This document shows positions 2,823 to 14,256 of a stretch of 57,512 bases of DNA, piece after piece. Under the pieces are notes generated by a model. That model worked only from the letters and a program-made list of their open reading frames with translations. It was not told where the DNA came from and made no database searches. The number at the start of each line of letters is the position of its first letter. Position 1 is the stretch's first letter. The stretch is from Lentisphaerota bacterium (GTDB lineage Bacteria; Verrucomicrobiota; Lentisphaeria; Victivallales; Victivallaceae). Both the position numbers and the translations under genes were made by a program. The stretch covers positions 1 to 57,512 of the forward strand of contig SUWE01000013.1 in assembly GCA_015061615.1 (NCBI GenBank), in the 5' to 3' direction.

Positions 2823-3134
2823 GGCGGCTTGCCGCCGTGTAAGCGAAGCGCACTAAAAGATAACACCATCCTTACTCGCACAGCGAGAAAACTTCACGGG
2901 CAGCGCAAGCTGACCTCTTCACAAGCGGAATGAAATGGAGCGTCTTCATCCACCTTCGCACAAGGCTACGGTGGACAAGCAAGTAAGTCTTCTCCGGGGT
3001 TTGGTGAAGATGTGAAGAAAAGGCTGCGCCTTTTGAGTGAAGAACTTTTGCGATTGCCGCTTTGCGGCAAGTTGCACAAAAGCAGTTAAGAGAAGACTTG
3101 CGTCTTCGTTCGCCATTTTTTTTGCTTTTCAAAA
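2823..3134. other. Gene-less stretch of short hairpins
   Basis: No credible gene. It contains a row of small perfect inverted repeats: GGCGGC-tt-GCCGCC (2823-2836), CCACC/GGTGG (2950-2975), AAAAGG/CCTTTT (about 3018-3034), TTGCCGC-ttt-GCGGCAA (3054-3070) and GAAGAC-ttgc-GTCTTC (3092-3107). The stretch CTTCGCACAAGG..GGACAAG (2953-2979) recurs twice at 32.5-32.75 kb. Probably a dispersed non-coding element; function unknown. Confidence 0.55.
2950..2980 (+). repeat. CTTCG..GGACAAG dispersed repeat, copy 1
   Basis: CCACCTTCGCACAAGG followed by CTACGGTGGACAAGC. Shares CTTCGCACAAGGCT and GGACAAG with 32505-32535. Confidence 0.6.
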
Positions 3135-3248
3135 ATGCTTTTCTGGGATTGCCTTCATTTCATTCAGGCTATCCCGCATTTTTGCAAAAAAATGCTTTTT
3201 GGGGATTGCCTTCATTTCATTCAGGCTATCCCGCATTTTTGCAAAAAA
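3135..3248. repeat. 57-bp tandem repeat, two copies
   Basis: Copy 1 is 3135-3191, copy 2 is 3192-3248; they differ at only two positions by eye. Each holds, on the minus strand, a stem GGGATaGCCT / AGGCaATCCC flanked by T-runs, so the array lies just behind tRNA-Ser where a terminator is expected. A duplicated terminator is the simplest reading. Confidence 0.75.
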
Positions 3249-3250
3249 AA

Positions 3251-3338
3251 TGGCGGAAGAAGAGGGATTCGAACCCTCGGAGAGTTGCCCCTCGGCGGTT
3301 TTCAAGACCGCTGCCTTAAACCACTCGACCATTCTTCC
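3251..3338 (-). tRNA. tRNA-Ser(UGA)
   Basis: 88 bases including an encoded CCA. Acceptor stem GGAAGAA pairs with TTCTTCC; the T arm is GAGGG-TTCGAAT-CCCTC; the anticodon arm GCGGT-CTTGAAA-ACCGC gives anticodon TGA, serine (reads UCN). A long variable arm (CGAGGGGCAACTCTCC) confirms a class II tRNA. The tandem 57-bp repeat follows directly. Confidence 0.96.
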
Positions 3339-3354
3339 GCAAGTTATCTTAATT

Positions 3355-3383
3355 AACATAACTCCAAAACAGGGATTTTGCAA
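3355..3383 (-). promoter_or_regulatory. Promoter of tRNA-Ser
   Basis: Reading leftwards: TTGCAA (3383-3378), 17 bp, TATGTT (3360-3355). Transcription would begin about ten bases before the mature tRNA 5' end. Confidence 0.7.
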
Positions 3384-3627
3384 ATGTGTTTTTGTAAAAA
3401 ACTAAAAAAAATGCTGTTTTTCTTTAATCTCTTTCCTTTTTACTTGAATAATCTCTGAAACGGTGATATATTTGAGGCAATTTCAAAAGTTCTAAAAAAC
3501 TCTTGAAAATTTCCGTTGCGATCTGAAAAAATGAGCATTTTCATCTCATCAACGGTATCTTTTCAATCTTTTTTTTATTGACTTTTGCAATTACCTCATA
3601 TTTCAGAAACTTTTGGAATGTGGATTT

Positions 3628-4398
3628 ATGAATGAACTTGTTGCTTTAGTTGCTGATATTTTGCGCAATGGCGGTGTGGAAAATTTCCGTCAGGAGTCGC
3701 GCTGGATCGCAGAAGATGCTCCCGATGCAGATTCTGCACTGGATTATGCCCGCCGCAGGGCAGGGGGGGAGCCTCTCCAATATATTCTGGGGAGTGCTCC
3801 TTTTCGCAATCTTATGTTGAAGGTCGATTCCCGTGTGCTGATTCCCCGGCCGGAAACTGAAACTCTTGTGCAGTGGCTCATTGACCGTGTGCCGTATGGT
3901 GGAAAAGTTCTTGATATCGGTTGCGGCAGCGGAGCGATTGCCATTTCTCTTGCCGGTGAGCGCCCCGATTTGCAGCTCTTTGCTGCGGATATAAGTCTTG
4001 AGGCACTTATGCTTGCAAAAGAAAATGCAGAACTTTGCGGAGTGAATGTCAAATTTTTTCACAGTGATATTTTTTCTGCATTTGATGGTGAGAAATTTGA
4101 TTTTATCGCTGCCAATCTTCCATACGTTACAGAAGATGAATATGCTGAACTTGACTCCGAAGTCCGCGATTATGAGCCGAAACTTGCATTGACCGCAGAT
4201 GATGACGGTTTGGCGCTGATTTTCAGAACTATCGACGGATTGCCCGCACATCTTTCCGGCGGAGGCGGAGTGATTTTTGAGCTTTCGCCTCATCAGGCTC
4301 CGCGCTGTTGTGCCGCGTTGGAAAAAATCGGCATGCGCAGCATGGTGATAAAAGATCTTTGTCAGCGTGACCGTTTTGTTGCCGGAATATCCTTATGA
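3628..4398 (+). CDS. prmC: Peptide chain release factor N5-glutamine methyltransferase
   Basis: 256 residues, close to the usual 270-290. It methylates the GGQ glutamine of release factors RF1/RF2 using SAM. Visible signatures: RRAGGEPLQYILGSAPF (N-terminal substrate-binding part), RPETETLVQWL, the SAM loop VLDIGCGSGAIAISLA, and the catalytic motif as AANLPYV where most PrmC proteins have NPPY. The ATG at 3628 is preferred over an in-frame TTG at 3613. Its last bases overlap the next gene as ATGA. The 290 bases upstream show no gene and only a weak promoter. Confidence 0.93.
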   Translation: MNELVALVADILRNGGVENFRQESRWIAEDAPDADSALDYARRRAGGEPLQYILGSAPFRNLMLKVDSRVLIPRPETETLVQWLIDRVPYGGKVLDIGCGSGAIAISLAGERPDLQLFAADISLEALMLAKENAELCGVNVKFFHSDIFSAFDGEKFDFIAANLPYVTEDEYAELDSEVRDYEPKLALTADDDGLALIFRTIDGLPAHLSGGGGVIFELSPHQAPRCCAALEKIGMRSMVIKDLCQRDRFVAGISL

Positions 4399-5651
4399 AC
4401 CGTCAGAAAATGCTTGCTTACCGCAAAAAGCTCGGCAACAAGGGTGAAAAGGCGGCAGAGGATATCTACCGTGCGCAGGGATATATGATCCTTGAACGTA
4501 ACTGGCGGTGCAAGGCGGGAGAGCTTGACATTGTTGCGACCGACGGAAAAACTTTGATTTTTGTGGAAGTTAAAACCTTGCGTTACCGTGAAGGGGCGCG
4601 TCCTGAGCTGAATCTTTCAAATCATCAGCGGCGGCGCAACTTCCGTGCGGCGCGGGTGTATCAAAAAATTTGCAGCGGACGGGGAATTTCCGGACGTTTT
4701 GATCTGGTGACGGTTATTTTCAAAGGAGCGTTTATTTATTCTCTGCGCAAATACACTGATTACCTGCCGATGCTGCCGCCGCTTGATGAGCCTTGCGGCA
4801 ATAACTCAGAAGATCTCTCTGTCCGGGAGGAAAAGAGCCGTCTCGGGTATCTGAAAGAGTTTTTCTGCGATCTGCTTACCTCTTTGCGTGAAATGAGTAT
4901 GAGGAAATTTCTGGAACTTTCATTTTCCGGTTGTCCCATTTGCGGTTCTGAGGATTATGGGATCAAAGACGGTCGATTCTGTCCGGAGTGTCTTGCGCAG
5001 CTGAACTTTTTTCCGGATAAGTTCCGTTGTCCGGTTTGTGGAGGTTTGAACGATACTTTGCTTGCGGTTTGTCCGCAATGTGCAGGCGCGCCCGCTCCGC
5101 CGTGGGAAAATGCGGTATCCATTTTTGAATATGCCGGATTGGGCAGAAAAATATTGATCCGTTATAAATTTCACAAAGCCAGCGAATTTGCCCTGTCTCT
5201 GGGGATTTACGGCGCTAAAGCGCTTGCAGACAGCGGTATTGATTGTGATTTGATAGTTCCTGTTCCGATGCATATCATCAGGAAAATGATTCGCGGTTAC
5301 AATCAGGCGGAGTTTTTTGCAGAGATAGTTTCTCAGAAAAGCGGTATACCGGTGATGAATTTACTGAAAAGCCGTTTTTCGTTGACAACTCAGCACAGCC
5401 GCACGCGTGCTGAACGTTATAAAAAGGTGAAAAAGCACTTTTTGTTGCGCCGTCCGGTTCCGGCAGGGAGCAGGATTCTTCTTGTTGACGATGTTTTTAC
5501 CACCGGTTCGACTTTGCGGGCGGCGGCGGAGGTGCTGCTTGCCAATGGTGCCGCTTCGGTATCGGTTCTGACCATTGCCCGCCGGAATCTGATTTCTTCC
5601 GTCAAAGTTGATGTGAGTGACGTGTTGCGGCTGAAAGCACGAGGCAAATGA
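4395..5651 (+). CDS. YraN-ComF fusion (nuclease-like plus phosphoribosyltransferase)
   Basis: 418 residues made of two families that are normally separate genes. Residues 1-125 are YraN/UPF0102, an archaeal-Holliday-resolvase-like fold, with GELDIVATDGKTLIFVEVKT carrying the D...EVK nuclease-type residues. After a linker (about 126-175), residues 180-418 are ComF: zinc-ribbon cysteines (CPIC, CPEC, CPVC, CPQC), YKFHKASEFA, VPVPMH, and the PRPP loop ILLVDDVFTTGSTL. ComF and YraN are both linked to natural transformation or DNA handling, although exact roles are open. Translationally coupled to prmC by ATGA. Confidence 0.92.
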   Translation: MNRQKMLAYRKKLGNKGEKAAEDIYRAQGYMILERNWRCKAGELDIVATDGKTLIFVEVKTLRYREGARPELNLSNHQRRRNFRAARVYQKICSGRGISGRFDLVTVIFKGAFIYSLRKYTDYLPMLPPLDEPCGNNSEDLSVREEKSRLGYLKEFFCDLLTSLREMSMRKFLELSFSGCPICGSEDYGIKDGRFCPECLAQLNFFPDKFRCPVCGGLNDTLLAVCPQCAGAPAPPWENAVSIFEYAGLGRKILIRYKFHKASEFALSLGIYGAKALADSGIDCDLIVPVPMHIIRKMIRGYNQAEFFAEIVSQKSGIPVMNLLKSRFSLTTQHSRTRAERYKKVKKHFLLRRPVPAGSRILLVDDVFTTGSTLRAAAEVLLANGAASVSVLTIARRNLISSVKVDVSDVLRLKARGK

Positions 5652-5698: not shown

Positions 5699-5726
5699 TT
5701 GACAAATATTTATTCTGTGCTATATT
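5699..5726 (+). promoter_or_regulatory. Promoter upstream of the dif-like pair
   Basis: TTGACA (5699-5704), 16 bp, TATATT (5721-5726), preceded by TGC. If used, the transcript starts near 5733 and carries the whole inverted pair in a leader of about 280 bases before the heptosyltransferase gene. Confidence 0.65.
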
Positions 5727-5783: not shown

Positions 5784-5811
5784 ATGTCGCATAATACACA
5801 TTATGTTAAGT
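5784..5811 (+). other. dif: dif-like Xer recombination site, left copy
   Basis: 28 bases that align with the E. coli dif site: XerC arm ATGTCGCATAA, 6-base centre TACACA, XerD arm TTATGTTAAGT. By hand 20 of 28 positions match E. coli dif, with 10 of 11 in the XerD arm. Bases 5785-5811 recur exactly, inverted, at 5915-5941, so the repeat ends where a Xer site would end. Whether it is the chromosome's working dif cannot be decided here. Confidence 0.7.
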
Positions 5812-5914
5812 CGTTTCAGCTTAAATCCTTGCACTTTCTCTTTCTTTTTTGTTTAATCCAGCAGTATCATTTTTTACAATCACTTTATTTCAAACATATT
5901 ACAAAACATTTCCC

Positions 5915-5942
5915 ACTTAACATAATGTGTATTATGCGACAC
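5915..5942 (-). other. dif: dif-like Xer recombination site, right inverted copy
   Basis: The reverse complement of the left copy over 27 consecutive bases (5915-5941). The two sites face each other across 103 bp. Phage CTXphi carries two dif-like attP sites in inverted orientation about 90 bases apart that fold into the recombination substrate; the geometry here is similar, but both copies are identical. Confidence 0.7.
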
Positions 5943-6012: not shown

Positions 6013-7221
6013 ATGGAAGAGAAAAAAGAAAATAATCCCAACGGGATGGGGATAGTGTTCGGAGATATTCCTAAAATCCCGACTCAGGATGCCATTGACG
6101 GAATAAAATTTGACTTCAACGACGGTTTGCGGGTGCAAATTCCCAAAGGAGCAAAGTCCTACCGTATCCGTTTTGTCGATTTGGGAACAAAATCTTGTGT
6201 ATATGATACCGTTACCCCCGATGGCGGCGACTGTGTTGTATTCAGTTTCAAAAAATATTTTATCAAGTTCCGGCTGGTCATTTCTGAAGTTGCTGATGAT
6301 AAACTGCTTTTTATGCACGATTTTGATGCAGCAGACAAAGAAGTTGTGGTACGTTTTCCGGTGCATACGCTTGGTGATACCATTGCCTGGTTCAGTTATG
6401 TGGAGCGTTTTCAGCAGAAATTGAACTGCAAGCTTATCTGCGTTGTGTCTGATTGGTTTGCGGAAATCGTAAAAAATCAATACCCTCAAATCAAATTTGT
6501 TTCCAAAGAAGAAGCAGCTTCAATCCAGTCTTATGCCAATTATAATGTAGGGCTTTATGAACTTGGCAATGTAACTCATCAGCCGGTGGATCACCGTTAT
6601 GTGGGCTTGCATCGGGTGGCGGCGCATATTTTTGGAGTGGATGACAGTGATATTCCGCCGCGTTTTGACCTTTCTGCGCCCCGTCAGATAAAAGAAAAAT
6701 ATGTGTGTATCGGGGTACAAAGCACAAGTTTAGCAAAATATTGGAATAATCCCGAAGGCTGGGATCGGGTAGTGGATTACCTGAAAAGCAAAGGTTACCG
6801 TGTATTGTGCATTGACAAAGACCGCATCGGCGGCAAGGCGGGAACCTTTATCCGCAAACCGGAAGGGGCGGAGGATTTTACCGGAGCGTTACCGCTTCAA
6901 CAGCGTATTGATTTGTTGAAAGATGCCGATTTCTATATCGGCTTATCCAGTGGATTGAGCTGGCTGGCATGGGGATGCAAAGTTCCTGTAATCATGATTT
7001 CAGGCTTTACCAATCCGATAAATGAATACAAGACCCCGTACCGGGTTATAAATTACAATGCCTGCAACAGCTGCTGGAACGAATTCAAAGATTTCAACCT
7101 GACCGATTTCTGGCACTGTCCGCGACTGGCAGGCACTGACCGGCGTTACGAATGTACCGCAATGATCACCGCCGATCAGGTAATTGATATGATTGATAAA
7201 GTAATAGAAGATATAAAATAA
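6013..7221 (+). CDS. TibC/Aah-like protein O-heptosyltransferase
   Basis: 402 residues. Matches the bacterial autotransporter heptosyltransferase family (BAHT; Aah, TibC), GT9-like enzymes that move heptose from ADP-heptose to serines of surface proteins in the cytoplasm. Visible: RFPVHTLGDTIAWF (heptosyltransferase-type N-terminal loop), GVQSTSLAKYWNNPEGW, the conserved GLSSGLSWLAWGCKVPVI, and the family's iron-binding cysteines as C351-NS-C354, HC369P and C381 (TibC also uses four cysteines). The first 120 residues form a beta-rich domain. The Shine-Dalgarno is weak. The gene ends 12 bases before the giant surface protein, its likely substrate. Substrate and donor are inferred from the family and neighbour. 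Confidence 0.88.
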   Translation: MEEKKENNPNGMGIVFGDIPKIPTQDAIDGIKFDFNDGLRVQIPKGAKSYRIRFVDLGTKSCVYDTVTPDGGDCVVFSFKKYFIKFRLVISEVADDKLLFMHDFDAADKEVVVRFPVHTLGDTIAWFSYVERFQQKLNCKLICVVSDWFAEIVKNQYPQIKFVSKEEAASIQSYANYNVGLYELGNVTHQPVDHRYVGLHRVAAHIFGVDDSDIPPRFDLSAPRQIKEKYVCIGVQSTSLAKYWNNPEGWDRVVDYLKSKGYRVLCIDKDRIGGKAGTFIRKPEGAEDFTGALPLQQRIDLLKDADFYIGLSSGLSWLAWGCKVPVIMISGFTNPINEYKTPYRVINYNACNSCWNEFKDFNLTDFWHCPRLAGTDRRYECTAMITADQVIDMIDKVIEDIK

Positions 7222-7233
7222 AGGTAAGTAATT

Positions 7234-10200
7234 ATGGCGACAGGCGAAAACAAAACCATTAATGGCAGTTTGACACTTGATGACAGATATCAAACTACGA
7301 TATACGATGATATATTGACTATCAGCGGTGCCAATATCTCATTGCTTGACCCAGCAGGTGAAATCTTTACCGATAAAGGCAATGATACGGTTACTGTAAC
7401 TGACTCGACAATCACCAGCAACAGTGAAAGCGGAGCTGAGCTGATGTTTTCCATGGGGTCTGACAACGACTCTCTTACGATATCCAATTCCACACTGAAC
7501 GTCAATACCTTTATGGGCAGCGGCAACGACACTGTTACTGTTGCTGGAAGCATATCATCTGAAGTAACCATTAATAATCAGTTTTCACTCGGTGCTGGTG
7601 ACGATACTCTGACCTTGAAATCTATACTTTCTGGAACCGGCGATCTGGTCTTCGGCGACGGTAATGATACGCTTGTTTTTGATGGCGGACATTTGCTGAC
7701 AACAGGAAGTATTACTGGACTTACAAATTTGACCGTTACAGGAAACACTGGTACGCTCGGGAATAATCTGACATTATCAGGATCCCAAAATGCAATTACT
7801 TTGAATGGAAATTTAACAGGAACGGATAGTTATAAAGTCATTACTGTTTCCGATAGCACAGCAACTTTCAAGACTGCAAATAATGTCAAAACAAATGTTG
7901 TTTATTCTGTTTCAAATGTAATATTCAATCATGTTGACGGCGGTACTCTGGAAATTGCCGAAAGTTCCTATTGGGCATTTTCAGCGGATTATTCAACTGT
8001 AACGCTCCATGATACAGTTTTGAGAAGCAATGGTGGCAGTTTTTATGGAACAGAGACCGACTGGATCATAAATAACAGTGATATATCCAATAACACTAAC
8101 GGAGCCAATCTTACCAACGGCTCTCTTGATTTGACTGCAGTCGGTTTTTCCAACAACAGCAATACTGCCTTGAAATTGTCGGGAACAGCTCTTACAGGTA
8201 AAGATGTTTCTTTTTCCTCCAATGCTAACGGGGCATTGGATATATTACACGCCAATGCGGTGTTGGATGACGCACGGTTTGCAAAAAATCATACCGATGC
8301 CTCGTGCATCTCCACCTCTCGCGTCTCCGCCTCTGTCTCCGCTTTTGGTGGAGCAATCAGACAAACTGCCGGTAATATGGTATTGAGCAATTCATATTTT
8401 TCTGGTAACAGCGCAAATGTAGATGTAATCGCTTCCAACAGTGCTTACGCCTACTCCTTCTCCTACGCTTCCGCTTCCGCCTACGCCTTTGCCACCGCTA
8501 CCGCTACTGTTTACGGTGGGGCGATTGCCAATAGTTCTGGAGATTTGATATTCAGCGGCAGTGCAAACTACTTTTCCGACAACAGCGCAAATGCAAATGT
8601 AATTGCCAAAGCCTATGCCATAGCCTCCGTCAGTGTCGGACCCTACGATAATGGCATTGCGTCCGCCTATGCCTATGTCTCCGCCACCGCTACCGCCACG
8701 GCTTACGGTGGTGCGATAGCCAATAGTTCTGGAGACTTGATATTCAGCAGCAGTGCAAACTATTTTTCTGGCAACAGCGCAAATGCAAAAATAATCGTCC
8801 AGGCCATTCCCAATGCCCGCTCCTCTGGCTATGTCTACTCCTACCCCACCTGCATTCAAAATTCCCGCGCCTTCGCCACCGCTACCGCCACGGCTTACGG
8901 TGGTGCGATTGCCAACTGTTCTGGAGACTTGATATTCAGCGGCAGTGCAAACTATTTTTCCGACAACTGTGCAAATGCAAATGTAATTGCCGTAGGCTCT
9001 GGCTTCGCCACCGCCATTGCTTACGGTGGTGCGATTGCCCACAGCTACGGTGTTTTGAAATTGAATAAAGCCTCTTTTGATGGCAACTATGCAAATGTCA
9101 GCGCTACCGCCGCCGTCCGAGATACTGCCGCCGTCCGAGGCAACGCGTACGGTGGCGCTATCGCTGCAAATAATTCAATTTTGAATTTGACAGATGTAAC
9201 ATTTTCGGCTAACAGTGCAAGTGCAACCGCTTATGGCTCTCCCAGTTCCGTCGTCTCTGCTTATTCTACCGCCTCCGTCACGGCTTACGGTGGTGCGGTT
9301 TATATTTCAAATTCAACTATGGAATATGTTGTTACAGAAAACGAATGTATTGAAAATATCGGCAATAATGCCCAAAAAGGCGGTTTTATCTATCTGGATG
9401 GTGTTTCAGAGACAACATTCAAAGTTGATGGCTCTCTGATTGTCGGTGATTCAACGGGTATGGACTCTATCGCAGGTTCTGAAACTTCAACCATTATCAA
9501 AACGGGAAGCGGCAAATGGACGGTCAATTCCGATATTTCAGAGTTTACAGGTTATTGGAATCTCAATGAAGGCATATTGAAACTTGACCGTATCGCCCGC
9601 GATATCACCCTTGATAACTGGACTATCGGTGTTGATGCTGAACTGCATTTGAGTGCATTGAATGATACGATAACCATGAATGTCGATAAAAAGATTGGTA
9701 CTATCGACCTCGGCGGTGGCAGTGACAGAATCAATACAGGGGGGTATCATCTTTCAGATGGTCTTTTGCGGATCAGTACATTGACCTTGACCGGCGGCGG
9801 CAGAGTCAGCAGTGAAATTACCAACCGGACCGCTGGGGCAGGATTTGACCTGATCCTTGATGATGTTACTTTGAACAGCATCATTACCGGCGGCAGTGCC
9901 GCGGATAAAATCACTGTTACTCAAAGCTCCACCATCGGCGGAGTGTTGAATCTGGGCAACGGTGCCAACACTATTACTGCAAATTCCGGTACTGAAACAG
10001 TATTTGCCAAAAGTGTGATACTCGGAACCGGGGCAGACACTTTGACTTTTTCATCTGTTGTGTTTCAGGACTCCCTGACTCTCGGAAATGGTAAAAACTC
10101 ATTTTCAGCAGAGGATTCTGCAAAAATCTCTGGTGCATTTTCTGCAGGAACAGGTGATGATACATTGAGTTTCGGCTCTGTCGAGTTTGGCAATTCTGCG

Positions 10201-13200
10201 GATTTGGGCGACGGTGTCAATTCTCTGACGGCTACGGGAAATGCTAAATTTTCCGGAACTCTTTCCGGCGGCAGCGGTGATGACACCTTTGATTTTTCTT
10301 CTGTAACTTTCAATCGCAATGTTAATTTGGGCGATGGAACCAATAAGCTCACAGCAACGACAGCAATCATCAATGGTGATTTGACCGCAGGCAGCGGCAA
10401 CGATACCATCAATTTGAAGCAGGATTCAGAACTTCGCGGCAATATCGCTCTGGGCGGCGGCAAAAATTATATTTATGTTACCAAAAATCTTACTATTACT
10501 GACGGTTTTACTCTGGATTCCGAAGGAGAAACCCATCTGATTGTTTACAACAATGCCGCCTTGAACAGCAATTCACTCAATGTCTATGACCCTGAGAACA
10601 GCAATACCGTCTCTGTAACTTATGATTGGAGTGACGTTGAAGGTTTGGATAAAGTCCGCCTGCTCGTTTCCAGTGATGCGACATTTGAAACCTTTGAATT
10701 CACTGTTGAACTTTACAATCAGAGCAAAGAGTTTACTCTGAATGTTTCCGACAACTACTTTATCCAGTTTCAGGCACAGGATGAAGACGGCTGGTCACAC
10801 CGTATCCTTGACGATACCGAAGCCCCCGATCAGGTCACTGGTTTTGCCATGGATGGCACGACTGCTGTCTGGGATGATACTCACGACAACTGGGGCGGAA
10901 ACGGTGTCAAACAATACAATATTCAAGTTGCTTCCGATGCCAATTTCAATTCTGTGATCGGCACTTACACCGCCACAGACAACTCATACGACTTTTCTTC
11001 CTTCGCCGACGGCAATTACTTTATCCGTATTCAGGCAGAGGACTTTACAGGCAACAAGGGCGAATGGAGCGATGCAGAAAACCTTTTGATCGACAACAAT
11101 GCCCCCACCAAACCGGCAAATGTCACCGGAAAAGTCTCCCTTGATTCCATCACGGTAAACTGGTCTCCGGCAAGCGATTCCGGCAGCGGACTCAAAGAGT
11201 ACAAAATTGAATTTTCCACCTCTTCCACCTTCTCAAGCATCACTCATTCGGCAACTCTTTCCGGCACAAGCTATACCGCAAGTGACCTTGCCGATGGAAC
11301 CTATTATTTCCGGGTGTCGGCGGTGGACAATGTGAACAATGTCAGCGCATGGAGTACCGTTTCCAGCGTGATCGTGGATACCACTGCCCCTCAAGCGGCT
11401 TCAAATGTGAAAGCTTCGCAAAATTCCGGAATCGTCACTCTAAGCTGGGATGCCGCCAGTGATGCCGGAGTCGGAGTCAAAGAGTACATCATCGAGTATT
11501 CCACCGACAACAGTTTCAGCAGTATCGCCGGAACCAGAACTGTCTCCGGAACCTCATGTTCCATCAACGGTCTTGCCGATGGAAATTACTGTTTCCGGGT
11601 GCAGGCAGTCGATAAAAACGGCAACGCCGCTTCATGGAGCAACACCGCAACGGTGATCGTCGACAGCGTTCCGCCCGCCAAGCCAACTGCATCGGCTGAT
11701 ATTACCTCCGCTACTAATAAAGATGTTACAGTCAGTGCCGTTTTTAGCAGTGATTCAGTGGTCAAAGAGTACAGTCTGGATAACCGGAATTGGTACGCGT
11801 ACTCCTCCGGAGTGGTCATGAGTAATAACGGCACGGTCTACTTCCGCGGCAAAGATGAAGCGGGAAATTATTCCGCAGTCACCAGTTACGAAGTGACCAA
11901 CATCGACAAAGTCGCTCCGACCAAGCCGACTGCATCGGCTGATATTACCTCCGCTACCAATAAGGATGTTACGGTCAGCGCCGTTTTCAGCAGTGATTCA
12001 GTGGTCAAAGAGTACAGTATGGATAACCGGAATTGGTACGCGTACACCTCCGGAGTGGTCATGAGTGATAACGGCACGGTCTACTTCCGCGGCAAAGATG
12101 AAGCAGGAAACTATTCCGCAGTCACCAGTTACGAAGTGATCAACATCGACAAGGTCGCGCCGACATTTGATATTTCAAGAAGCACGGAATCATTGACCAA
12201 TCAGAATGTCATCCTCACCGTTTCGGCAAAAGACAGTGCCAGCGGCATAAAATCTATCCAGTACAGTTTTAATAACAGCTCTTGGATGAGTGGTTCAACC
12301 GTCAATGTTGATTCCAATAAGACAGTTTACTTCAAAGTTACCGACAATGCCGGTAACGTCACGGAACACTCGGTCGTTGTTAACAACATTGACAAAACCG
12401 CGCCCGCCAAGCCAACTGCATCGGCTGATATTACCTCCGCTACTAATAAAGATGTTACGGTCAGCGCCGTTTTCAGCAGTGATTCAGTGGACAAAGAGTA
12501 CAGTCTGGATAACCGGAATTGGTACGCGTACACCTCCGGAGTGGTCATGAGCAATAACGGAACAGTTTACTTCCGCGGCAAAGATGAAGCGGGAAATTAT
12601 TCCGCAGTCACCAGTTACGAAGTGACCAACGTCGACAAGGTCGCGCCGACCAAGCCGGAAGTGTTTGCCAGTACCACCGCGCCGACCAATAAAAATGTGA
12701 CGGTCAGTGCGGAGTTCTCACTCGACAGCATCAAACAGCAGTTCTCCTACGACAACCAGACTTGGTACGACTACGAAAGCGGAATTGTCCTCTCCCGCAA
12801 CGGAGTGCTTTACTTCCGCGGTATCGATGCCGTCGGCAATGTCTCAGAAGTTGCCCGGTATGCCGTTACCAATATCGACAAGATCGCGCCTTCCGCTCCG
12901 GTTGCCAGTGCGGACATAACCAGTTTGACCAATAAACCGGTCACGGTCTCTGCGACCTTCAGCGATGATGCCGCCAAACAACAATACTCTTTTGATGGTT
13001 ATACCTGGAGTTCTTACTCGTCCGGCATTGTTATGGAAAGTAACGGTACAGTTTACTTCCGCAGTTTTGATGCCGCTGGAAATGTTTCGGAAATCACCGA
13101 ATATATTGTCGAAAATATTGATAATATTGCACCTGCCAAACCGACTGCAACCGCCGATATCACTGCTGAAACAGAAGATGCGGTAACGATTACCGCCGCA

Positions 13201-14256
13201 TTCAGCAAAGATTCTGTTGTTAAACAGTACAGTCTTGATAACAAAAACTGGAAAACCTACACTTCCGGCGTTGTTATGGAAAGCAACGGCACTGTCTACT
13301 TCCGCGGAATCGACGCCGCAGGAAACATTTCCGCTGTAACCGCTTATGAGGTAAATAATATCATTGCCGTTTCAGATGTGATTGCCGATGACCTTGATGG
13401 TAACGGTTTGGCAGATGTTATCCTTGTTCACACAAAACAGGGATACTCCGGAGCATGGCTTACAACGGGAGATGCTTCGGTTATCAAGTGGGGCAGTCTT
13501 TCTAATGTCAACGCAGGAACGGAAATCCTCGGTACCGGAACTCTTTACGGAAGTGAAAACGACGGTCAGGATATCTTCTTTGCCGACAGCAAATCCGTCG
13601 GAGCCTGGAATGTCGTTGACGGCAAAGTTACCGGATACAAGTCAATCATGAGTATAAACTCCAGCACCAACGTCCTCGGACTTGGTGACTTCAACGGTGA
13701 CGGTGCAACGGATATCCTCCTGCGTTCCACCAACGGCGACCTCGGATTCTACAATACCGACGGAACCGGGTTCACTTATCTCAAAGGATTGGGTAAGGAG
13801 TGGACAGTTGCGGCGATAGGCGACCTCAACGGCGACGGCTTGGATGATGTCGTCCTCCGTCACGATGCCGGATTTGCCGGAACATTCCTCACTCAGGAAA
13901 ATGGAACCGTCAAATGGGCAAGTCTTGATACGCTGAAAAGTGATATGACTATCGTCGGAACGGGAGACTTCAACGGTGACGGCGTTGATGACGTTCTCCT
14001 TCAGAACAAATCCAACGGCTGGGTCGGAGCTTGGCTCGTTGAAGACGGTAGAGTTGACAGCTTCATTGGTCTTTGCACCAATAAGAACACCATTGAACAG
14101 ATCGCGGACTTCAACGGTGACGGGATCGACGACCTCCGCATCCGTGCTGGAGCTGATATCGGTGTTCTCTACGTCAACGGTGCCGACGATACCACATGGC
14201 AATACTTCAAGAGTGTCGGAACTGAGTGGGACACCTCATTTTCCGCCCTCGCGTAA
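7234..14256 (+). CDS. Giant repeat-rich surface protein (adhesin-like)
   Basis: 2340 residues; AAAGG lies upstream of the ATG. No N-terminal signal peptide and no C-terminal autotransporter barrel is visible. Order: residues 1-300, strand-rich with GxGNDTVTV RTX-like repeats; 356-720, a beta-helix region with YGGAI and FSxNSAN repeats like chlamydial Pmp motifs, interrupted by Ser/Ala/Tyr/Thr-rich loops; 800-1150, more GTGDDTL-type repeats; 1195-1480, three fibronectin type III domains; 1480-2046, seven 81-residue Ig-like repeats; 2047-2340, FG-GAP/VCBS-like DFNGDGxxD calcium loops ending in SFSALA. A type I secretion route through an uncleaved C-terminal signal is plausible. Probably O-heptosylated by the upstream enzyme. 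Adhesion or biofilm function is inference. Confidence 0.85.
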   Translation: MATGENKTINGSLTLDDRYQTTIYDDILTISGANISLLDPAGEIFTDKGNDTVTVTDSTITSNSESGAELMFSMGSDNDSLTISNSTLNVNTFMGSGNDTVTVAGSISSEVTINNQFSLGAGDDTLTLKSILSGTGDLVFGDGNDTLVFDGGHLLTTGSITGLTNLTVTGNTGTLGNNLTLSGSQNAITLNGNLTGTDSYKVITVSDSTATFKTANNVKTNVVYSVSNVIFNHVDGGTLEIAESSYWAFSADYSTVTLHDTVLRSNGGSFYGTETDWIINNSDISNNTNGANLTNGSLDLTAVGFSNNSNTALKLSGTALTGKDVSFSSNANGALDILHANAVLDDARFAKNHTDASCISTSRVSASVSAFGGAIRQTAGNMVLSNSYFSGNSANVDVIASNSAYAYSFSYASASAYAFATATATVYGGAIANSSGDLIFSGSANYFSDNSANANVIAKAYAIASVSVGPYDNGIASAYAYVSATATATAYGGAIANSSGDLIFSSSANYFSGNSANAKIIVQAIPNARSSGYVYSYPTCIQNSRAFATATATAYGGAIANCSGDLIFSGSANYFSDNCANANVIAVGSGFATAIAYGGAIAHSYGVLKLNKASFDGNYANVSATAAVRDTAAVRGNAYGGAIAANNSILNLTDVTFSANSASATAYGSPSSVVSAYSTASVTAYGGAVYISNSTMEYVVTENECIENIGNNAQKGGFIYLDGVSETTFKVDGSLIVGDSTGMDSIAGSETSTIIKTGSGKWTVNSDISEFTGYWNLNEGILKLDRIARDITLDNWTIGVDAELHLSALNDTITMNVDKKIGTIDLGGGSDRINTGGYHLSDGLLRISTLTLTGGGRVSSEITNRTAGAGFDLILDDVTLNSIITGGSAADKITVTQSSTIGGVLNLGNGANTITANSGTETVFAKSVILGTGADTLTFSSVVFQDSLTLGNGKNSFSAEDSAKISGAFSAGTGDDTLSFGSVEFGNSADLGDGVNSLTATGNAKFSGTLSGGSGDDTFDFSSVTFNRNVNLGDGTNKLTATTAIINGDLTAGSGNDTINLKQDSELRGNIALGGGKNYIYVTKNLTITDGFTLDSEGETHLIVYNNAALNSNSLNVYDPENSNTVSVTYDWSDVEGLDKVRLLVSSDATFETFEFTVELYNQSKEFTLNVSDNYFIQFQAQDEDGWSHRILDDTEAPDQVTGFAMDGTTAVWDDTHDNWGGNGVKQYNIQVASDANFNSVIGTYTATDNSYDFSSFADGNYFIRIQAEDFTGNKGEWSDAENLLIDNNAPTKPANVTGKVSLDSITVNWSPASDSGSGLKEYKIEFSTSSTFSSITHSATLSGTSYTASDLADGTYYFRVSAVDNVNNVSAWSTVSSVIVDTTAPQAASNVKASQNSGIVTLSWDAASDAGVGVKEYIIEYSTDNSFSSIAGTRTVSGTSCSINGLADGNYCFRVQAVDKNGNAASWSNTATVIVDSVPPAKPTASADITSATNKDVTVSAVFSSDSVVKEYSLDNRNWYAYSSGVVMSNNGTVYFRGKDEAGNYSAVTSYEVTNIDKVAPTKPTASADITSATNKDVTVSAVFSSDSVVKEYSMDNRNWYAYTSGVVMSDNGTVYFRGKDEAGNYSAVTSYEVINIDKVAPTFDISRSTESLTNQNVILTVSAKDSASGIKSIQYSFNNSSWMSGSTVNVDSNKTVYFKVTDNAGNVTEHSVVVNNIDKTAPAKPTASADITSATNKDVTVSAVFSSDSVDKEYSLDNRNWYAYTSGVVMSNNGTVYFRGKDEAGNYSAVTSYEVTNVDKVAPTKPEVFASTTAPTNKNVTVSAEFSLDSIKQQFSYDNQTWYDYESGIVLSRNGVLYFRGIDAVGNVSEVARYAVTNIDKIAPSAPVASADITSLTNKPVTVSATFSDDAAKQQYSFDGYTWSSYSSGIVMESNGTVYFRSFDAAGNVSEITEYIVENIDNIAPAKPTATADITAETEDAVTITAAFSKDSVVKQYSLDNKNWKTYTSGVVMESNGTVYFRGIDAAGNISAVTAYEVNNIIAVSDVIADDLDGNGLADVILVHTKQGYSGAWLTTGDASVIKWGSLSNVNAGTEILGTGTLYGSENDGQDIFFADSKSVGAWNVVDGKVTGYKSIMSINSSTNVLGLGDFNGDGATDILLRSTNGDLGFYNTDGTGFTYLKGLGKEWTVAAIGDLNGDGLDDVVLRHDAGFAGTFLTQENGTVKWASLDTLKSDMTIVGTGDFNGDGVDDVLLQNKSNGWVGAWLVEDGRVDSFIGLCTNKNTIEQIADFNGDGIDDLRIRAGADIGVLYVNGADDTTWQYFKSVGTEWDTSFSALA
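8512..9030 (+). repeat. 192-bp Pmp-like repeats with variable serine/alanine loops
   Basis: Conserved blocks of about 96 bp begin at 8512, 8704 and 8896, exactly 192 bp apart, each encoding YGGAIAN.SGDLIFS.SANYFS.N.AN. Between them lie variable stretches of similar length rich in YA, SA, TA codons (pyrimidine-rich NCC triplets). A fourth YGGAI occurs at 9022 after a shorter spacer. Recent duplication with divergence of the loops. Confidence 0.85.
11668..13368 (+). repeat. Seven 243-bp tandem repeats (81 residues each)
   Basis: Anchored on the ACTGCATCGGCTGAT block, copies begin at a strict 243-bp step (11686, 11929, 12172 degenerate, 12415, 12658, 12901, 13144). Copies 1, 2 and 4 are almost identical in DNA; copy 3 is diverged. 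Each encodes TNKDVTVSAVFS..KEYS.DNRNWYAY..GVVM..NGTVYFRGKDEAGN, an Ig-like/OmpL47-like beta domain. Confidence 0.88.

Follow-up and report, generated by a model that had tools for sequence, protein, structure and literature searches.

Why would two matched dif-like Xer sites face each other across a short segment of DNA in front of a surface-protein gene? The Xer/dif system is usually described as a housekeeping system of dimer resolution, which is borrowed by phages and plasmids. The question is raised by a pair of such sites in the window, i.e., the whole stretch of 57,512 nucleotides that was analysed. A UPF0102/phosphoribosyltransferase fusion gene ends on one side of the pair, the gene at 6013 starts on the other, and the features of the locus are as follows.

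5699..5726, forward strand: promoter-like site TTGACA-N16-TATATT with a TG before the -10 (11/12), lying beyond the unit and directed through it to the operon
5785..5811, forward strand: left dif-like Xer site, with XerC-type arm 5785-5794, centre TACACA 5795-5800 and XerD-type arm 5801-5811
5812..5914, no strand: spacer of 103 bp, predicted invertible leader segment
5832..5834, reverse strand: weak candidate leader start GTG, proposed by analogy, on the strand that matches the RBS/start strand of the relatives and now facing away from the operon
5915..5941, reverse strand: right dif-like Xer site, exact reverse complement of 5785-5811 with an identical centre
6013..7221, forward strand: autotransporter strand-loop-strand O-heptosyltransferase (TIGR04414, 491 bits, cut-off 200)
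7234..14256, forward strand: next gene, likely in the same operon, for a 2340-aa surface-type protein with OmpL47-type repeats, Ig-like and FG-GAP domains

The fusion gene (4395-5651) is a single open reading frame that joins a UPF0102 domain (residues 17-107) to a phosphoribosyltransferase domain (residues 308-398). Elsewhere in the window, the translation of the open reading frame at 3037-3405 contains a 20-residue direct repeat; a reverse-strand gene for tRNA-Ser(TGA) lies beside it (3251-3338).

The left site (5785-5811) reads TGTCGCATAA-TACACA-TTATGTTAAGT on the forward strand, with the XerC-type arm outermost, followed by the 6-bp centre and the 11-bp XerD-type arm toward the spacer. The inverted repeat is exactly 27 bp long, and the pairing fails at 5784/5942 on the outer side and at 5812/5914 on the inner side. 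When 3 mismatches are allowed, the pattern CGCATAAT-N5-TTATGTTAAGT occurs twice in the window versus 0.01 expected from 100 dinucleotide shuffles, none of which contained two. A chance origin of the pair is negligible, and the perfect inverted pair of dif-like sites around a 103-bp spacer, described in the initial annotation, proved real on re-reading of the letters and in the shuffle control. The agreement with E. coli dif counted there, 20 of 28 positions, was also obtained by eye. The sites fit the layout of chromosomal dif, two 11-bp arms and a 6-bp centre, as outlined in the part of the Xer review drawn on here (PMC5357621), and their dif-like arms would make them putative XerC/XerD substrates. 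The arrangement is that of an inverton, with inverted recombination sites around a short segment at a surface gene.

One of the readings first proposed for the pair was the chromosomal dif accompanied by an inverted twin. A dif is a single site per chromosome near the terminus, and the assembly to which the window belongs (G000; 2.7 Mb, 84.65% complete, 109 contigs) contains five sites with up to 3 mismatches, versus none for the reversed-pattern control. They are the window pair, another inverted pair, located on contig C76, and a lone site on contig C54, with no further site in this incomplete assembly. The C76 pair has 27-bp arms, a 104-bp spacer and the centre TAAGCA. Its spacer is homologous to that of the window when both are oriented by their downstream genes (z 7.1, with 82 of 123 aligned columns); if one is flipped, the score drops to z 0.7. 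The lone C54 site has the centre TATACG, unlike TACACA of the window. Among the 34 genomes of the same genus, own assembly included, a site with up to 2 mismatches is present in 28, and exactly one in 23, and the lone site is therefore the likely dif. In the relative G007, of which 160 kb were read, the cumulative GC skew of this stretch peaks about 25 kb away from the lone site; neither the short contig C54 nor the window displays a clear switch of GC skew. The separate lone site with another centre, together with the mostly single-site relatives, speaks against the dif-twin reading, which is probably wrong.

A dif candidate could be named in 12 of the 14 genomes found to bear pairs, the other two being G054, with two candidates, and G068, with none named among the matches listed. 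In G059, with three lone sites, the candidate was picked by the similarity of its flanks to those of the G056 and G058 sites. The reversed control of this lone-site scan gave one match each in G054, G059 and G068. The arms of the pairs resemble these lone dif candidates.

The window pair is one of many. In a search for the exact pair pattern in one genome per species (84,980 species), four matches were obtained, three in the MAG SIG91 and one in the MAG RGIG4167 (Lentisphaerae, Lentisphaeria). With patterns of differing looseness, pairs occur in 7 of 78 genomes of the family and 15 of 137 genomes of the order, the reversed-pattern control of the order scan giving no match. A phylum-wide draw found pairs in 7 of 387 genomes, all seven inside the order of the window. 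From the fetched loci, 73 distinct pairs were compiled, which belong to 14 genomes of the order. L235, a duplicate of L092, and the pair at the start of contig G118:C41 are not among them. As many as 20 pairs are present in a single genome (G068). In 61 pairs, the unit spans 119-141 bp from core arm to core arm, and in 12, including that of the window, 150-152 bp. In 70 of the 73 pairs, the arms share their central hexamer, which was unconstrained in the searches, and 22 different hexamers are used. No pair carries the dif hexamer of its own genome on both arms in the 12 genomes with a named dif candidate; a degenerate pair of G105 (L141 at 1793) has it on one arm.

The position of the pairs relative to genes is equally recurrent. 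In 53 of the 73 pairs, one arm opens directly into a gene that is read through the arm, and 52 of these genes are pilin-like (FTLIELLVV), L077 being the exception. The two-sided loci (L141 at 3015 and L233) and 18 pairs without the gene motif stand outside the 53. At L086 5102-6448 (G058) and L084 (G059), the start of the cassette is joined in frame to a protein whose own start resembles a signal peptide; for the L086 protein, neither Pfam nor NCBIfam gave a family at E 0.001. Loci L221 (G105:C84) and L223 (G103:C208) align over their non-gene flanks (1656 bases) and have no blastn match between their gene sides, as if the pilin gene had been swapped at the site. In G068, the contigs C82, C164, C195, C201 and C216 start or stop about 15 bases or less from a pair; several of these contig-edge pairs share near-identical spacers at different loci, which hints at recent spread or exchange of spacers.

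Other pairs precede surface-protein genes, as in the window. The C76 pair is followed by an AIDA-like strand-loop-strand protein (TIGR04415, Pfam AIDA). Three pairs of G056 lie upstream of a 1548-aa repeat protein of similar look (by eye), of an FG-GAP/CARDB protein with a TibC-type glycosyltransferase after it, and of an AIDA protein with a 162-aa open reading frame in between. No fused start was found for the window, C76 and G056 loci in either orientation, and folding of the window leader RNA in both orientations gave an equal predicted accessibility of the heptosyltransferase start (0.36). In G004, an ortholog of the heptosyltransferase (93% identity) occurs without a pair, and its upstream DNA differs.

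Both orientations of the spacer are observed in the relatives. In the gene-flanked pairs, the spacer supplies an in-frame start codon, or the RBS for an ATG within the arm. This spacer/arm start or RBS faces the gene (ON) in 33 of the 53 pairs and away from it (OFF) in 20, where 31 ON and 18 OFF calls rest on the better RBS score given by a script and four on reading by hand. The script itself had divided the 73 pairs into 32 in, 18 out, 3 ties, 2 two-sided and 18 without gene motif; the ties were resolved by reading (L063 and L088 ON, L069 OFF), and L064 was moved from ON to OFF because the script had used a spurious TTG. In G068, five pairs point in and 12 out. When the 20 outward loci were flipped in silico, 18 acquired both an in-frame start and a scored RBS for it, and L064 and L069 an in-frame ATG with no scored RBS. 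The placement of RBS and start codon argues for control of expression by orientation in the pilin loci. An example of inversion at a single position is the orthologous locus of the sister species G110, G111 and G112 (L227, L230 and L232). Conservation is seen on the gene side, where L227 and L232 agree in 588 of 731 columns. The G112 spacer is inverted there, aligning with the other two when flipped (z 7.1 and 5.7), and not as it stands (z -0.2 and 0.3). In addition, the contigs G105:C49 (L141, about 3015-3222) and G054:C28 (L233, 1-182) fold back exactly at the pair, over 75 of 75 and 55 of 55 bases. Such mirrored ends would be expected if both spacer orientations were present in the sample, since an assembler could create them from the mixture, and may also be foldback artefacts. 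In a mirror comparison of 13 loci, six of which had 16 bases or fewer to compare, only L141 mirrors.

The loci of G068 also bear on the place of the exchange. The outer letters on the far side are taactt in 4 of 5 ON and 9 of 12 OFF loci (the rest being three cut by contig ends and one taaatt), and the inner half-arm goes together with the spacer. Since the outer letters are alike in both states and the inner half-arm moves with the spacer, the exchange point would lie within the shared core. The outer-arm variant CGTATAA, compared between L227/L230 and L232, adjoins the same spacer end in both orientations and not the same flank. Its movement with the spacer counts against the best explanation, as it would not be expected from a crossover within the centre.

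The same state is kept in the orthologous pairs L134/L138, L225/L228, L226/L229 and L147/L148 of sister species, matched by both flanks, and in L136/L140 and L135/L222, matched by the gene side only. L227 and L230 also share their state. Because these six locus pairs and L227/L230 keep the same state, flipping may be rare or biased. The five surface-protein pairs (two in G000, three in G056) are all in one orientation and, by analogy with the RBS strand of the relatives, the window copy, like the other four, would on balance now be OFF. The initial annotation had suggested that XerCD could flip the spacer: the inversion itself is backed by the loci of the relatives, where both orientations exist, while the window copy is seen in one orientation only.

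Promoter-like matches of at least 10/12, aimed from the far flank through the unit to the gene, are found in 26 of 59 loci. On the opposite strand, the number is 4 of 59, and among 1180 mononucleotide shuffles 5.2% reach this score. The 59 loci are 63 minus four with short far flanks, with orthologous loci counted separately. An outside match of this quality is also present in 7 of 18 OFF loci. At C76, the promoter-like site has the same hexamers and spacing as that of the window, and the window has an opposite-strand match of 10/12 at 5751-5724.

It is quite likely that the matched Xer sites let XerC/XerD invert the 103-bp 5′ leader between a fixed promoter and the surface-protein operon, switching the genes. 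In this mechanism, XerC and XerD would recombine the two matched sites and invert the 103-bp segment, which would serve as the 5′ leader between the fixed promoter (5699-5726) and the O-heptosyltransferase and surface-protein genes. The flip of the leader would turn the genes on or off via translation initiation or the post-initiation fate of the transcript. In the pilin-type relatives, the unit would act through its RBS and start codon, both being presented in the ON state and their complement in the OFF state. In the window, C76 and G056 loci, the leader would presumably work in a different way, e.g., by transcript termination or a short leader peptide. The matched centres, unlike that of dif, should stop the pair from recombining with dif. 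That XerC and XerD are the enzymes, that flipping is frequent and that it changes expression is what we infer from these arrangements. Besides the points already named, the lack of a fused start and the equal start accessibility in the window, its opposite-strand promoter match and the scarcity of outside promoter matches in G068 weigh against this explanation.

A classical inverton would place the promoter in the spacer and flip it toward or away from the operon. This is suggested by 9/12 promoter-like matches on both spacer strands of the window, and by the loci of G068, an exception in which an outside match of at least 10/12 occurs in 1 of 14. The pilin gene of G110, G111 and G112 has an apparent RBS of its own outside the unit, and because of that something besides the start codon must be switched in these three. 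However, promoter scores inside the units, with means of 5.92 and 5.99, do not exceed those of shuffled flank DNA (5.92), compared to 6.66 for the outside flank toward the gene, and in five loci a 12/12 promoter lies outside. Since many loci have promoter-like sites outside and the units score at the shuffled level, a fixed promoter with an invertible leader is the simplest picture; promoter inversion was rejected as the main mode on the same scores and is unlikely. The enzyme is a separate matter, as a dedicated recombinase in place of host XerC/XerD would be compatible with either mode of switching. Many described invertons carry their own recombinase, extra PF00589 or PF00239 proteins occur in several pair-bearing genomes (PF00239 in G056, G058, G068, G105 and G115), and an invertase may be missing from the incomplete assemblies. 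Against this, no third PF00589 protein (14 genomes) and no PF00239 protein (10 genomes) is common to all genomes tested. PF00239 is absent from the pair-bearing G000, G059, G014, G015 and G103 among the 10 searched, a set without G054, G110, G111 and G112. Exactly two PF00589 proteins, both strong and presumably XerC and XerD, were found in the pair-bearing G056 (94% complete), G103 (56%), G105 (82%) and G115 (78%). In G000, to which the typing of XerC/XerD families was confined, the only strong PF00589 proteins are XerD on C75 (TIGR02225, 329.8 bits, cut-off 329.6) and, on C37, a XerC-like protein (TIGR02224, 306.5 bits, below the cut-off of 335.15); a third match is weak and 191 aa long. FtsK gamma is present in 6 of 6 genomes tested. 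The likeness of the pair arms to the lone dif candidates adds to the case against a dedicated enzyme, which is distinctly unlikely. XerC and XerD are the candidate enzymes because of this elimination, limited by the incomplete assemblies, and the arm sequence.

It may also be asked whether the pairs move at all. A static element, either a conserved leader hairpin or a MITE-like repeat that has lost recombination, would agree with the six orthologous locus pairs in the same state and with the single orientation of the five surface-protein pairs. Such an element has little chance in view of the 33 inward and 20 outward loci, the inverted ortholog and the two mirrored contigs, and direct target duplications of the MITE type were seen by eye neither at the window edges nor at the listed G068 edges. 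The initial annotation had also considered the att hairpin or footprint of a CTXphi-type Xer-dependent mobile element, since two inverted dif-like sites about 100 bp apart recall attP1/attP2 as given in the part of PMC3089051 drawn on here. The window has such inverted sites, at a distance close to the 90 bp or so of attP, and has no unlike centres and, in the scans given below, no sign of an adjoining phage genome. Its centres are identical, whereas those of attP1 and attP2 differ in the same part of that source. The exact-arm pair pattern has no match in viral contigs, seven neighbouring proteins gave no phage hallmark against PHROGs, and the own assembly holds no further sites. The recurring position upstream of pilin or surface-protein genes, with starts in frame through the arm, is also against a mobile element, and this reading did not survive, with next to no chance of being right. 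The window pair thus appears to belong to a family of invertible leaders, and to be neither a dif twin nor a phage hairpin.

The wider proposal has even chances. In this order, the XerC/XerD of dimer resolution, acting on dif-like sites, would form a genome-wide phase-variation machine with a pair- or class-specific centre code, in which RBS/start leaders flip behind fixed promoters and switch pilins and adhesins at translation initiation. The pilin site would be hidden in the prepilin leader, which is cut off the mature protein. Host genes appear to borrow Xer/dif for switching, up to 20 pairs in G068. This poses the question of how Xer acts at many chromosomal sites without scrambling the chromosome, to which the matched, dif-unlike centres suggest an answer.

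Several known systems share parts of this arrangement. In Ureaplasma, the part of PMC3599477 drawn on here links a Xer-family recombinase, XerC, to inversion at short inverted repeats by which a surface protein phase-varies; those repeats are distinct from dif, and the putative dif is bound by a different recombinase, CodV. In contrast, the repeats of the present order are dif-like, reach 20 pairs per genome in G068 and surround a short leader/start module. The cps1 inverton of Akkermansia, a gut bacterium placed in Verrucomicrobiota, is likewise an invertible element beside a surface (capsule) locus, whereas its repeat motif CGGATT..AATCCG is not dif-like, as far as the consulted part of PMC13343947 goes; its main text has no occurrence of "recombinase" or "Xer". 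CTXphi attP1/attP2 and other IMEX also have opposite dif-like sites about 90-100 bp apart, and in the excerpts used of PMC3089051 and PMC5357621 the two CTXphi centres differ and integration needs folded ssDNA; here the centres match each other and differ from dif. The term "phase variation" does not occur in the main text of the Xer review (PMC5357621). No report of dif-like sites used for leader inversion was recognised among the papers listed by searches of the open-licence PMC literature.

In the flagellar switch of C. difficile, the promoter reportedly lies outside the invertible segment and Rho acts on the leader. As in the loci described here, a segment upstream of a surface operon is inverted, by RecV in the part of PMC7446863 drawn on. 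The recombinase is a different one, and the pilin units of the present family carry the RBS, the start codon and the first codons. A module that flips the start codon while the promoter stays in place is also another type of switch than promoter inversion.
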